From NCBI RefSeq assembly GCF_000177215.2, contig NZ_CM001368.1, positions 992,001 through 1,056,000 of the forward strand: a stretch of 64,000 nucleotides of DNA, in the 5' to 3' direction. This document shows positions 5,207 to 58,314 of this stretch, one piece after another. The translations under genes were made by a program, and so were the position numbers. Position 1 is the stretch's first letter; the number at the start of each line of letters is the position of its first letter. The notes under the pieces were generated by a model, which was not told the DNA's origin, made no database searches, and worked only from the letters and a program-made list of their open reading frames with translations. This stretch comes from Solidesulfovibrio carbinoliphilus subsp. oakridgensis. Lineage in GTDB: Bacteria; Desulfobacterota; Desulfovibrionia; Desulfovibrionales; Desulfovibrionaceae.

Positions 5207-5365
5207 ATGTCACTCGGAACCATTCTGCTCATCCTGCTGATATTGATGTTGCTTGGCGCCATCCCCAGTTGGCCGTACAGCCGTGGCTGGGGATATGGGC
5301 CTTCCGGTATCATCGGCGTGATCCTGGTCATCCTGCTGATCCTCATTCTGCTCGGCAGGATCTAG
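5207..5365 (+). CDS. DUF3309 family small membrane protein
   Basis: This is a 52-residue protein preceded by GGAGG. It has two hydrophobic segments, GTILLILLILMLLGAIP and IIGVILVILLILILLG, separated by a loop WPYSRGWGYGPSG that is characteristic of DUF3309. The function is unknown. Genes of this family often accompany CsbD-like genes, as here. The TAG stop codon at 5363-5365 overlaps the end of a 104-bp two-hairpin repeat; the AG of the stop is the terminal AG of that repeat. Confidence 0.8.
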   Translation: MSLGTILLILLILMLLGAIPSWPYSRGWGYGPSGIIGVILVILLILILLGRI

Positions 5366-5467
5366 TGTTGCGATCCTTAAAAAATACGCCGGTATTTTTT
5401 AATAAAGAATAATCATCGCAGATGGTTATTCATGAAAAAGCAGGTGCTTTTTCATGGACGCGACACT
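5364..5467. repeat. Two-hairpin intergenic repeat, copy A
   Basis: The 104-bp element has terminal inverted repeats (AGTGTTGCGATCC at one end, GGACGCGACACT at the other). Inside are an AT-rich hairpin at 5379-5400 (AAAAAATAC-gccg-GTATTTTTT) and a perfect 12-bp hairpin at 5431-5456 (CATGAAAAAGCA-gg-TGCTTTTTCATG). The order and termini match copies at 22385, 52708 and 58210. It begins inside the stop codon of the DUF3309 gene and may act as its terminator. Confidence 0.75.
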
Positions 5468-5532
5468 GGCCCTGGCAATGGGGCGGCCGCGCAAACAAAC
5501 CCGGAAACACCCGATACCGTAAACGGACAGCC

Positions 5533-5587
5533 GCTCCCGCGTCCCCGGTCCAGGCCCTGCCCTGGCCGGCTGCGGGAGCTTTCTTTT
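5533..5587 (+). terminator. Possible rightward terminator
   Basis: Stem GCTCCCGC (5533-5540) with GCGGGAGC (5572-5579) encloses a second small stem and is followed by TTTCTTTTTC. It lies between repeat copy A and the 3' end of the leftward lolA gene. Confidence 0.45.
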
Positions 5588-5721
5588 TCATTTTCCGACC
5601 CGCCATGCTCCTGACCGGCACGTGTTCCCAGCCGGCCTGGACCAGGGGCGGGAACAGGCCGCTGGCCCGCTTCCGCTTCGGCGCGCCGGACGACACGCAC
5701 GGTGCGCCAGACAGGGTCTCC

Positions 5722-6399
5722 CTATTTCAGGTCGCGCTCCTTGGCCGGGGCGTTGTCGTGGACCTTGGCGTCCTTGGGCGGGGTGAAGGCGAACAGCGTG
5801 TCCGCCAACTTGGGATTGGCGACCACGCCGGTAAGCGCCAAGTCGTTGGTATTGGCGTAAAAGTCCTGGATGTAGATGCGGGCGATCATGTCCGTGGCCA
5901 GATCCACCCAGACCTTGGCCATGACCAGGCCCGGCTCGGGCTCCCGGGGCGCCAGCTGGAGCACGGCCTGTCCGGGGCCGGCCTCTTCGGGCTTGCCCGG
6001 CGCAACCAGGAAGTCCTCGGTCAGGTTGGCCTTGCCCGTCAGAAACCGCAGCATGGTCTTGGAACTTATGACCTCGGCCACGGAATAGCGGTAGGCCTCA
6101 CGATCCTCCTCGAACCAGTCCCAGACCGCGTCCTTGCCGACCACGAGCAGTTCCTTTTCCGGCTTGACCGTCTCCCACCGGACCAGGACCGGCTTTTTGA
6201 AGAGAAACGACCCGGAACGGCGCTCGGTGTCGCCGCTGGCCGCGTTGCGGATGGACTGGGAGAACTCGGCAGAAAAGGAGTTCAGGGTGGCGTACTTCTT
6301 CTGGATGCGGCCGGCCAGCTCCGCCGGCTCCACGGCCCGGGCCGGCGCGGCAACGGACAGGATCAGGCCGAGGACGACAAGGGTGGCAAATGTTTTCAT
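5722..6399 (-). CDS. lolA: Outer-membrane lipoprotein carrier protein LolA
   Basis: The 225-residue protein starts with a cleavable signal peptide (residues 1-22, ending APARA-VEP). LolA features follow: NSFSAEFSQSI near residue 40, SGSFLFKKPVLVRWE forming the first beta strands, and a VWDWFEEDREAYRY strand. LolA binds lipoproteins released from the inner membrane by LolCDE and carries them across the periplasm to the outer membrane. Here it is the last gene of a leftward series aroQ-efp-ftsK-lolA, separated from ftsK by a structured 220-bp spacer. Alpha- and deltaproteobacteria often have ftsK and lolA adjacent, which supports the call. Confidence 0.9.
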   Translation of the reverse strand: MKTFATLVVLGLILSVAAPARAVEPAELAGRIQKKYATLNSFSAEFSQSIRNAASGDTERRSGSFLFKKPVLVRWETVKPEKELLVVGKDAVWDWFEEDREAYRYSVAEVISSKTMLRFLTGKANLTEDFLVAPGKPEEAGPGQAVLQLAPREPEPGLVMAKVWVDLATDMIARIYIQDFYANTNDLALTGVVANPKLADTLFAFTPPKDAKVHDNAPAKERDLK

Positions 6400-55999: not shown

Positions 56000-56050
56000 G
56001 AGATCCTCCAGATGGCGTGGTATTGGGCCGGGGAAGCCCGGCCCGAAGCA

Positions 56051-57487
56051 TCAGAAAATTTCCTTGCGCTTGGACGAGGATTCAATGCCCATGGCCGTGC
56101 GGTATTTGGCCACGGTGCGCCGGGCGATGTTGATCTGCAACTCGTCTTTGAGCATATCAGCAATGGCCTCGTCGCTGATAGGCTTTTTGGCATTCTCCCC
56201 GGAAATAATCCGCTTGATCATGGCCTTGACCGATTCCGAGCCGACCGTGCCGCCGTCGTCGAGGTCAAGGGAGCTGTTGAAAAAGAACTTGAGCTCGAAA
56301 ATGCCATGGGGCGTGGCCACGTACTTGTTGGACGTGATGCGGCTGACGGTCGATTCGTGCATGCTGATGTCGTCGGCCACATCCTTGAGGATCAACGGCC
56401 GCAACCGCGTGACCCCCTCCTCGAAGAATTCCCGCTGGAACTTCACGATGCTCTCAAGGACCTTGTACAGGGTCCGCTGCCGCTGGTAGAGGCTTTTCAT
56501 CAGCCACATGGCCGAGCGCATCTTGTCCTGGAGATAATCCTTGTCCTTGTCGTTTTTCGGATTGATCTCCGCCATGTAGGTCGTGTTGACGTTGAGCCGC
56601 GGCATGCCCTCTTCGTTTAAAATAATCACGAATTCGCCGCCGTATTTGTACACAAAGGCGTCCGGGCTCACGAAAATGGGATCGCCCGAGCCGTAGCTGG
56701 CTCCGGGCATGGGATTGAGGGTCTGGATCAGCTCAAGGTATTCCTTGAGTTTTTCCATGGTGATATGAAATTTTTTGGCCAGCGGCTTGTAGCGTTTCTT
56801 CTCCAGGTCTTCGAGGTGGTCGCGCACAAGCTCGATGAGGATGGTGTCCTCGTAGCCGTAGACCTCGATCTGGGTGAGCAGGCATTCGCTCGGGGTCCGG
56901 GCGGCCACGCCCACGGGGTCGAACCGCTGGAGCCGGTGGAGCACGGTCTCCACTTCGGGCACCGAGGCTCCGGCCATCTGGGCCAGTTCTTCGAGGGAAG
57001 CCCGCAGGTAGCCCGAGGAATTGAGGCTGCCGACGATACTCTCCCCGATCTCCAGTTCCTTGGCCGTGAAATTCGACAGGCGCATCTGCCAGCCGAGGTG
57101 CCCTTCGAGGGAGGGTTTGGAGGCGAGCCTGGCGTCAAAGGCCATGCCCTCCTCGGGCATCTCCGACTCCCGGGATTGGGACTGGCGGCCGGTGCTGGCG
57201 AAATCGCCGAGATAGTCGTCCCATTCGGCGTTTTTGAGGAGTTCCTTTTCCATGGCCGCGTCGCTGGAATTCCCGGTCGGCCCCAGGTTGTCCTCGGCCA
57301 TGGTCCGCTCCGGTTGGCGGTCCTCCTCGATCGATTCCTCCAGAAGGGGGTTTTCCAAAAGCTCCTGCTGCACGCTCTCCAGCAGCTCGAGCCGGGAGAG
57401 CTGCAGGAGTTTGATGGCTTGCTGCAGTTGGGGAGTCATCACCAGCTGCTGGGAGAGTTTGAGCTGCTGTCGCAGTTCCAGGGCCAT
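56051..57487 (-). CDS. rpoN: RNA polymerase sigma-54 factor
   Basis: The 478-residue protein has region I (MALELRQQLKLSQQLVMTPQLQQAIKLLQ, shown in parts: LKLSQQLVMTPQLQQAI), an acidic region II, a core-binding domain, a HTH near 370-390 (ISMHESTVSRITSNKYV) and the RpoN box ARRTVAKYR at about 462-470. It directs transcription from -24/-12 promoters with enhancer-binding activators. ATG 57487 starts at the conserved region I. It is upstream of hpf by 51 bp and co-directional. Confidence 0.95.
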   Translation of the reverse strand: MALELRQQLKLSQQLVMTPQLQQAIKLLQLSRLELLESVQQELLENPLLEESIEEDRQPERTMAEDNLGPTGNSSDAAMEKELLKNAEWDDYLGDFASTGRQSQSRESEMPEEGMAFDARLASKPSLEGHLGWQMRLSNFTAKELEIGESIVGSLNSSGYLRASLEELAQMAGASVPEVETVLHRLQRFDPVGVAARTPSECLLTQIEVYGYEDTILIELVRDHLEDLEKKRYKPLAKKFHITMEKLKEYLELIQTLNPMPGASYGSGDPIFVSPDAFVYKYGGEFVIILNEEGMPRLNVNTTYMAEINPKNDKDKDYLQDKMRSAMWLMKSLYQRQRTLYKVLESIVKFQREFFEEGVTRLRPLILKDVADDISMHESTVSRITSNKYVATPHGIFELKFFFNSSLDLDDGGTVGSESVKAMIKRIISGENAKKPISDEAIADMLKDELQINIARRTVAKYRTAMGIESSSKRKEIF

Positions 57488-57604
57488 GTCTACCGCCGTG
57501 CGAGGTCCTTTGGATGTTGGTGCGAAAAGCGGGGGCAAGGCCGACGCCCCGCCCGCTCAACAAAAAGCATGCCACAATCGAAGGATCGTGGCAATCGGCA
57601 CGGC

Positions 57605-58147
57605 TTACCCTTCCGGGAGGAACCAGGCGTAGGCCGCTTCGAGACGGCCGCTGGCCTGAAGCAGGAACCGGATGGCCTCGCGCACCGCCCCGTGCCCGCC
57701 GGGACGGCTGGCCACCCACAGGGCCAGGTCCATGATTTCCGGCTGGGCGTCGGCCACGGCCATGGGCAGGCCGACCAGACCCATGGGGCCGGCGTCCACC
57801 CAGTCGTCGCCGAGGTAGGCGGCCTGGCCGGGGGAAAGCCCCAGCCGCCCGAGGATGCCGGTCAGGATCGGAACCTTGTGGTGGTGGCCGGGATGGTACT
57901 CGCCAATGCCCAGTTCCTTGATGCGGGCGGCCACGGCCGGACTGTCGAGGCCGCTTATGACCGCCACTTGCAAGCCCGCCATCTGGGCGGCCTTGATGCC
58001 GAGGCCGTCGTGGGCGTGAAACCGTTTGGCGATGCCGCCGTGGGCGTCGACATAGAGGCCGCCGTCGGTCAGGACGCCGTCCACGTCAAGGACGAGCAAG
58101 GCCACGTCCCTGGCCCGCGTCGCGGCCAGCTTCGCATCCTGCGCCAT
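57605..58147 (-). CDS. kdsC: KdsC-type HAD phosphatase
   Basis: The 180-residue HAD phosphatase has the DxD motif LLVLDVDGVLTDGGLYV (Asp21, Asp23), the conserved FHAHDGLGIKAAQMAGLQVAVISG and GDDWVDAGPMGLVGLPMAVADAQPE (shown in parts: YLGDDWVDAGPMG). This is the 3-deoxy-D-manno-octulosonate 8-phosphate phosphatase family, acting in lipopolysaccharide core synthesis. kdsA and lpt genes, often beside it, are not here. Confidence 0.88.
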   Translation of the reverse strand: MAQDAKLAATRARDVALLVLDVDGVLTDGGLYVDAHGGIAKRFHAHDGLGIKAAQMAGLQVAVISGLDSPAVAARIKELGIGEYHPGHHHKVPILTGILGRLGLSPGQAAYLGDDWVDAGPMGLVGLPMAVADAQPEIMDLALWVASRPGGHGAVREAIRFLLQASGRLEAAYAWFLPEG

Positions 58148-58209
58148 ACCACCCGCCTCCTCGCGCCGCCCGGCCCCGGCGGGACGACCCGAGGCGACGC
58201 CGTCCGCTC

Positions 58210-58314
58210 ATGCCGCGTTCTCGAAATCCGCGCATACGAATTTTGAGAACAACAAATTAGAATATTTATTTTTTTCTAAAAACTATGCCCCTGCTTTTCA
58301 GCGAACGTCGTGCT
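58210..58314. repeat. Two-hairpin intergenic repeat, copy D
   Basis: The 105-bp copy is the most diverged: left end ATGCCGCGTTCTCG, hairpin CTCGAAATCCG/CGAATTTTGAG, AT-rich tract TATTTTTTTCTAAAAAC and right end ending in the complement of AGCACGACG. The right terminus supplies the AG of the pyrG stop TAG. Confidence 0.65.

Follow-up and report, generated by a model that had tools for sequence, protein, structure and literature searches.

A 64,000-nucleotide stretch of the Solidesulfovibrio carbinoliphilus subsp. oakridgensis genome (NZ_CM001368.1, positions 992,001 to 1,056,000 of the forward strand; hereafter the window) contains four copies of a short hairpin repeat, each of which overlaps the TAG stop codon of an adjacent gene. 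These repeats are very probably miniature inverted-repeat transposable elements (MITEs) of an insertion sequence (IS) of the IS630 family (Tc1/mariner-like). In the proposed mechanism, a DDE transposase acting in trans would excise the element and insert it at TA, favouring TA within CTAG. Duplication of the TA on insertion would give C-TA-[GTGTNGCG...CGCNACAC]-TA-G, in which a C-TAG stop is rebuilt from the target TA and the first base of the element, G, and the gene is left intact. The other end, read on its own strand, would also be C-TA-G, the element being an inverted repeat, and where convergent genes end on one palindromic CTAG both stops would be restored. The build-up of copies at stop codons would then reflect CTAG as the target, the purging of in-gene insertions and the silence of insertions at stops. 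Repeats fused to TAG stops would thereby be explained by known transposition chemistry, as a clear example of a target sequence and an element end that jointly make insertions silent.

Repeat copies and the stop codons they adjoin

The four window copies and their genes are given below; the unit lengths of 102, 101, 104 and 104 bp follow from boundaries set by the IS630 rule.

5174..5365, + strand: DUF3309 gene, given as the open frame from stop to stop; TAG at 5363-5365; the domain match is full-length to the stop
5365..5466, + strand: repeat copy 1 (102 bp); A-hairpin end towards the DUF3309 gene; near TA at 5363-5364, far TG at 5467-5468
21907..22386, + strand: cNMP-binding gene, start uncertain; TAG at 22384-22386; a repeat adjoins this stop in a congener too (L144)
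22386..22486, + strand: repeat copy 2 (101 bp), opposite in orientation to the other three; B-hairpin end towards the gene; near TA at 22384-22385, far CA at 22487-22488
52709..52812, - strand: repeat copy 3 (104 bp); A-hairpin end towards the phosphotransferase system (PTS) IIB gene; near TA at 52813-52814, far dinucleotide at 52707-52708 (TC on the gene strand)
52812..53273, - strand: PTS EIIB (PTSIIB_sorb) gene; stop TAG at 52812-52814
58210..58313, - strand: repeat copy 4 (104 bp, diverged); A-hairpin end towards pyrG; near TA at 58314-58315, far dinucleotide at 58208-58209 (GA on the gene strand)
58313..59944, - strand: pyrG (CTP synthase); stop TAG at 58313-58315

An earlier inspection of the letters and open frames of the window (the sequence-only reading) is partly confirmed in its observation and partly supported in its interpretation. 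The four repeats are present where it had placed them, and Pfam agrees with the genes that it had named (DUF3309, cNMP-binding domain, sorbose-type PTS IIB and CTP synthase), every one of which is TAG-terminated at the repeat. The arrangement of three copies with the A-hairpin end to the gene and one inverted was likewise seen. Its statement that both hairpins are kept in all four copies does not hold: folding is strong for copies 1 and 3 (at 5364 and 52708; z of -10.4 and -7.1 on the gene strand), weaker for copy 2 (at 22385; z of -2.0 and -3.4 on its two strands) and not significant for copy 4 (at 58210; z of -1.4).

A covariance model made from ten repeat copies was used to search the complete genome at E <= 1. 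This search gave 104 strand-wise matches, which were merged by hand into 80 places, all on the 4.1 Mb contig. As scoring was applied to 150 of the 958 first-look candidates, the true copy number may exceed 80; copies found by pattern alone (for example C1:2897494 and the half copy C1:832247) stand outside all counts. Supported reading-frame ends at the repeat ends were located with a codon score trained on 30 long window frames; gene ends are thus those of the score and not of a full annotation, and a few stops under the cut-off are left uncounted. At 53 of the 160 ends, in 51 of the 80 copies, a supported stop coincides exactly with bases 2-4 of the C-TAG-TG end (offset +1); for positions taken at random from this DNA the figure is 4 of 3200, and each other offset from -100 to +100 has at most seven supported stops (the maximum is at +16). 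The outcome that the sequence-only reading had named as refuting it, a genome-wide majority of copies away from stops, was therefore not obtained. The stop is TAG at 49 of the 53 ends, TAA at two and TGA at two, against 14 TAG among the 47 supported stops found elsewhere, and a C directly precedes the stop at 47 of the 53. At six more ends a supported stop lies no further than 6 nt from offset +1, which raises the number of copies to 57 of 80. Stops are met by the left end in 25 copies, the right end in 24 and both ends in two, so that genome-wide there is no orientation preference. Among 32 copies from other genomes of the genus (congeners), mostly the best-scoring ones of G010 and G011, supported stops coincide with 26 of 64 ends, 23 of which read CTAG.

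Placement at stops together with hairpins could also indicate a domesticated 3' element, with the TAG belonging to a selected signal and the hairpins serving in transcription termination or in the protection of mRNA 3' ends. The 51 copies directly at stops and the strong folding of the best-kept copies are in line with this explanation, as is the retention of hairpin B pairing through two-sided changes; in addition, other MITEs at gene 3' ends influence mRNA decay, according to an excerpt of PMC10969869. We nevertheless regard it as very improbable. No terminator-like site (a GC-rich hairpin followed by a T run) lies within copies 1 and 3, the two of the four window copies that were scanned, and structure decays in diverged copies; the suggestion of a domesticated terminator in the sequence-only reading is not upheld on these grounds. 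In addition, none of the 32 compared congener copies has both flanks matching a copy of the genome studied here (G000), only one site (the cNMP gene) is shared among those tested, and neither orientation is preferred at stops. No host function of the repeats emerges from these data. The compensating changes that had been reported are real in that hairpin B shows changes on both sides of the pair in nine of ten predicted pairs (37 copies), but the commonest of these paired changes track the split into two main subfamilies, with hairpin B arms that are CGAAATTCG-like or GAAAAAG-like. Hairpin A is absent from the predicted consensus structure of the 37 copies.

IS630 partner elements and target duplication

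The search for a partner element covered the 14 genomes of the genus, of which four have the IS630 endonuclease domain PF13358. In G010 (L150) and G011 (L151), a transposase with DDE_3 and helix-turn-helix domains lies inside a 1123-bp element with the terminal repeat GTGTNGCG, as in the repeat. The ends of these elements, each on its own strand, read GTGTTGCGTCC / GTGTCGCGTCC or GTGTTGCGTCC and adjoin TA. The repeat itself is short (101-104 bp in the window), dispersed over 80 places and without a transposase gene, and the GTGTNGCGNNC ends that it has in common with L150 and L151, which encode a DDE_3 transposase, in two congeners are the mark by which we class it as a MITE. Based on these ends, an L150-type transposase is proposed to move the repeats. 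Two further candidates were rejected, L149 (an IS630-type element of G005) having other ends and L152 being a locus at which matching ends were not found.

A transposase protein search of 17 genomes gave matches in five, with whole copies in G010 and G011 and partial or weak matches in G005, G009, G011 and G013. Seven 5' and seven 3' fragments of the IS lie at contig ends of G010, which suggests about eight IS copies in that genome, and all 14 of these ends read CTA-GTGT (the hyphen marks the junction). Two Desulfovibrio transposase relatives (65-66% identity) have CTA-GTGTTGCGTTC 5' of the gene; the opposite IS ends of these two were not found, and at a third locus, L182, the contig begins inside the gene. 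A separate observation is that at L270 (G010:C38:17002-17114) an IS630 end directly adjoins a repeat copy at CTAG.

Insertion at TA with a 2-bp duplication is described for IS630 in excerpts of PMC2170065, where a reference title gives the TA in 5'-CTAG-3' as the preferred IS630 target and where 34 of 39 products of ISY100, of the same family, are reported as TA insertions with a normal duplication. For the repeats, convergent genes with a common CTAG are natural traps that expose the duplication. The double-stop copies C1:671015 and C1:2456349 have a supported TAG at each end, one per convergent gene. No repeat was found at the homologous loci of the closest relative, G001, and both gene pairs end there on one palindromic CTAG (70-81% protein identity); in congener L137, the left gene alone of the C1:671015 pair ends at that CTAG. 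One CTAG has therefore become two in both of the double-stop copies, and at least TA was duplicated. Since the element starts with G and ends with C, duplications of 2 and 4 bp are indistinguishable in sequence; a duplication of TA rather than CTAG is what the IS630 family rule would predict. IS481-type duplications are of 6 bp (NCTAGN), and this type was rejected here, as the bases outside CTAG differ between the C1:671015 ends.

The same evidence bears on a single-strand element of the IS200/605 or REP/RAYT kind, with subterminal hairpins and insertion 3' of CTAG without duplication. The two internal hairpins and the unlike ends (CTAG on the gene side, mostly CTCG opposite) would suit such an element, which is nonetheless scarcely credible: the terminal inverted repeats match IS630, the CTAG common to two genes became two, and the best-scoring copies mostly have TA at their non-stop ends too. 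In addition, the Y1 tyrosine transposase domain (Y1_Tnp, PF01797) has no match in the genome studied here, in a search whose control was positive in five of 14 genomes. An IS200/605-like single-strand mechanism in which CTAG flanks one side and CGAG the opposite side was rejected on the absence of Y1_Tnp, the IS630 ends and the duplication.

Sites without the repeat are consistent with insertion of an IS630-type MITE at existing stops. In the EIIB-pyrG region, which was compared in all 13 congeners, the covariance model gave zero repeat matches, even at E <= 10, and the C-termini of both proteins agree within 2 residues. The pyrG stop is TAG in 11 congeners, TAA in one and TGA in one, with CTAG read in nine of 13; because congeners without the repeat mostly have TAG with the same C-terminus, the pyrG stop predates the insertion and did not arise by truncation. 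For EIIB the stop is TAG in four congeners, including G001, TAA in one and TGA in eight, and an ancestral TAG is less certain. The stop of the cNMP gene carries a repeat in the congener L144 as well; CTAG without the repeat is found there in two other congeners, TTAG in two more and no TAG in one. In G004 (L109), a stretch 3' of the EIIB stop by eye recalls a decayed repeat and has no model match at E <= 10.

The view of the sequence-only reading that the repeat is a non-autonomous mobile element is borne out by the terminal repeats shared with IS630, by the congener sites without the repeat, where pyrG and EIIB protein ends are unchanged, and by the spread across the genus. That reading had also counted the terminal AG as part of both the unit and the TAG, and had held that an AG outside the inserted unit would speak against it. 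By the IS630 rule each is half right, with the G belonging to the element and the A to the target.

A last alternative is a transposon that truly prefers stop codons or gene ends over and above CTAG, for instance via terminators or translation. It is raised by the contrast between the 51 of 80 copies at stops (57 when stops within 6 nt are added) and 70 empty CTAG sites in DNA of the same genome, of which 16 lie at stops, 17 are intergenic and 37 are in coding bodies; this census covers 326 kb of 4.22 Mb and is biased towards repeat surroundings. We consider it improbable. Compared with intergenic CTAG the excess at stops is small, and it comes from this biased sample; the C before 47 of 53 stop ends is unpredicted by a pure stop rule. 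At L150, the IS, which has the same ends, adjoins a coding stretch that is open up to its CTAG, which speaks against gene-end targeting as such; we take this stretch to be AraC-like. A supported TAG stop lies at four of the 14 G010 contig-end IS ends, and the other ten are without a supported stop. The earlier description of an element that targets gene ends is better read as CTAG targeting, given this IS copy and the 37 of the 70 empty CTAG sites that are inside coding bodies. Targeting of CTAG and loss of in-gene insertions, with selection presumably acting as a filter on insertions, go most of the way in explaining the placement at stops, and a modest extra excess at stops is possible.

Loss of TA at ends away from stops

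Several results weigh against an IS630-driven MITE. Neither a PF13358 domain nor an L150 transposase relative was found in the genome studied here, so that the present mover is unproven, and an intact IS copy is present in only two of the 14 genus genomes. The internal hairpins of the repeat were not found in the IS ends read, and the repeat is therefore not a simple deletion of an L150/L151-type IS. In addition, a supported stop at exactly +1 is missing from 29 of the 80 copies, most of which do not allow the original target to be read. Finally, most non-stop ends are not TA, and few old copies therefore show the duplication on either side.

The far non-stop ends read C-NN-G (for example at window positions 5467-5468 and 52707-52708), with CTCG the commonest form (16 of 49) and CTAG in four of 49, whereas CTAG is kept in 44 of 53 near ends. 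In 88-92% of cases the flanking C and G are retained, at stop and non-stop ends alike. Bit score was used as a measure of age, with the limit that it takes in the end bases: TA is intact at nine of 13 non-stop ends above 110 bits and at 22 of 132 below (Fisher p = 1.3e-4). It seems that the TA was present at birth and was lost later, with A to C the commonest change, possibly through flawed repair or because TA loss immobilises the copy. CTAG is depleted about ten-fold in the window (23 observed, 224 expected from base composition), but general avoidance of CTAG seems insufficient as the cause of the loss at far ends, given its retention at pyrG in the congeners and at the near ends. A further reading, which we hold to be unlikely, is that the stop codon is an evolved niche for an element whose initial G and TA target within CTAG repair any C-TAG stop that it enters; selection on the stop would then keep one TA, and TA-specific loss at non-stop ends would freeze old copies. 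If this were true, host translation would decide which transposon ends stay usable. The loss of TA at non-stop ends is in either case a measurable puzzle on how MITEs become frozen.

Distribution, variant forms and known families

In a search of 79 genomes, including that studied here, the model matched 17: this genome, all 13 congeners and three of 33 genomes from other genera of the family. None of the 32 genomes from other families of the order had a match.

RUP (repeat unit of pneumococcus) differs from the present family in sequence and host phylum, and intact partner elements of the present family are found in congeners only. Excerpts of PMC2229807 describe RUP as a MITE for which mobilisation by IS630-Spn1 has been proposed and which resembles the repeats in its length (107 bp), copy number (108), terminal repeats shared with IS630 and TA target; they describe it as intergenic and leave rebuilt stop codons unmentioned. 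IS630 of Shigella sonnei shares the TA insertion, the 2-bp duplication and the preference for 5'-CTAG-3' (PMC2170065, in part), but it is a full insertion sequence and is likened here by target, not by terminal sequence. ERIC and Correia repeats are also short, dispersed, palindromic intergenic MITEs (excerpts of PMC10969869 and PMC2229807); they have other sequences and hosts, whereas the partner here was identified via shared ends in congeners. MITEPsy1 of Pseudomonas syringae, of 100 nt, inserts at CTAG or YTAA, yet it has a 4-nt duplication and another terminal repeat and is related to ISPsy2, marked 'IS5?' (PMC3189936, in part). In a text search, 'stop codon', 'IS630' and 'CTAG' occur nowhere in the available text of the prokaryotic MITE review PMC10969869. 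No report of the repeat family or of stop-healing insertion was found in the open-access literature, a search that most subscription papers lie outside. Targeting of CTAG by IS630 and IS630-driven MITEs (RUP) are thus already known; new are the repeat family, insertions of it that heal stops, and TA loss at its non-stop ends.

Several variant forms were observed. A shorter form of about 87-90 bp, without much of hairpin A, occurs at C1:1140453, 1159676, 856843, 2395084 and 3869140 and at L153 and L155 of G011, and may be a mobile subfamily of its own. In the genome studied here, C1:2897494-2897602 is a diverged full copy missed by the model, C1:832247 is a half element with one hairpin and C1:3741514 is a lone terminal repeat 3' of TAG. 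At C1:3314712-3316159 (L037, L090), an insert of about 1.3 kb interrupts a repeat copy; it has the inverted ends GGTCCTTCCG...CGGAAGGACC and resembles an insertion sequence that lies within hairpin A.

Rfam gave five matches over the window at the gathering score (tmRNA, three tRNAs and int-alpA), none of them at the repeat copies. Window positions 25577-27438 hold a tmRNA gene, then an open frame at 26146-27363 and then the int-alpA RNA match at 27373-27438, an arrangement that resembles a mobile element integrated at the tmRNA.

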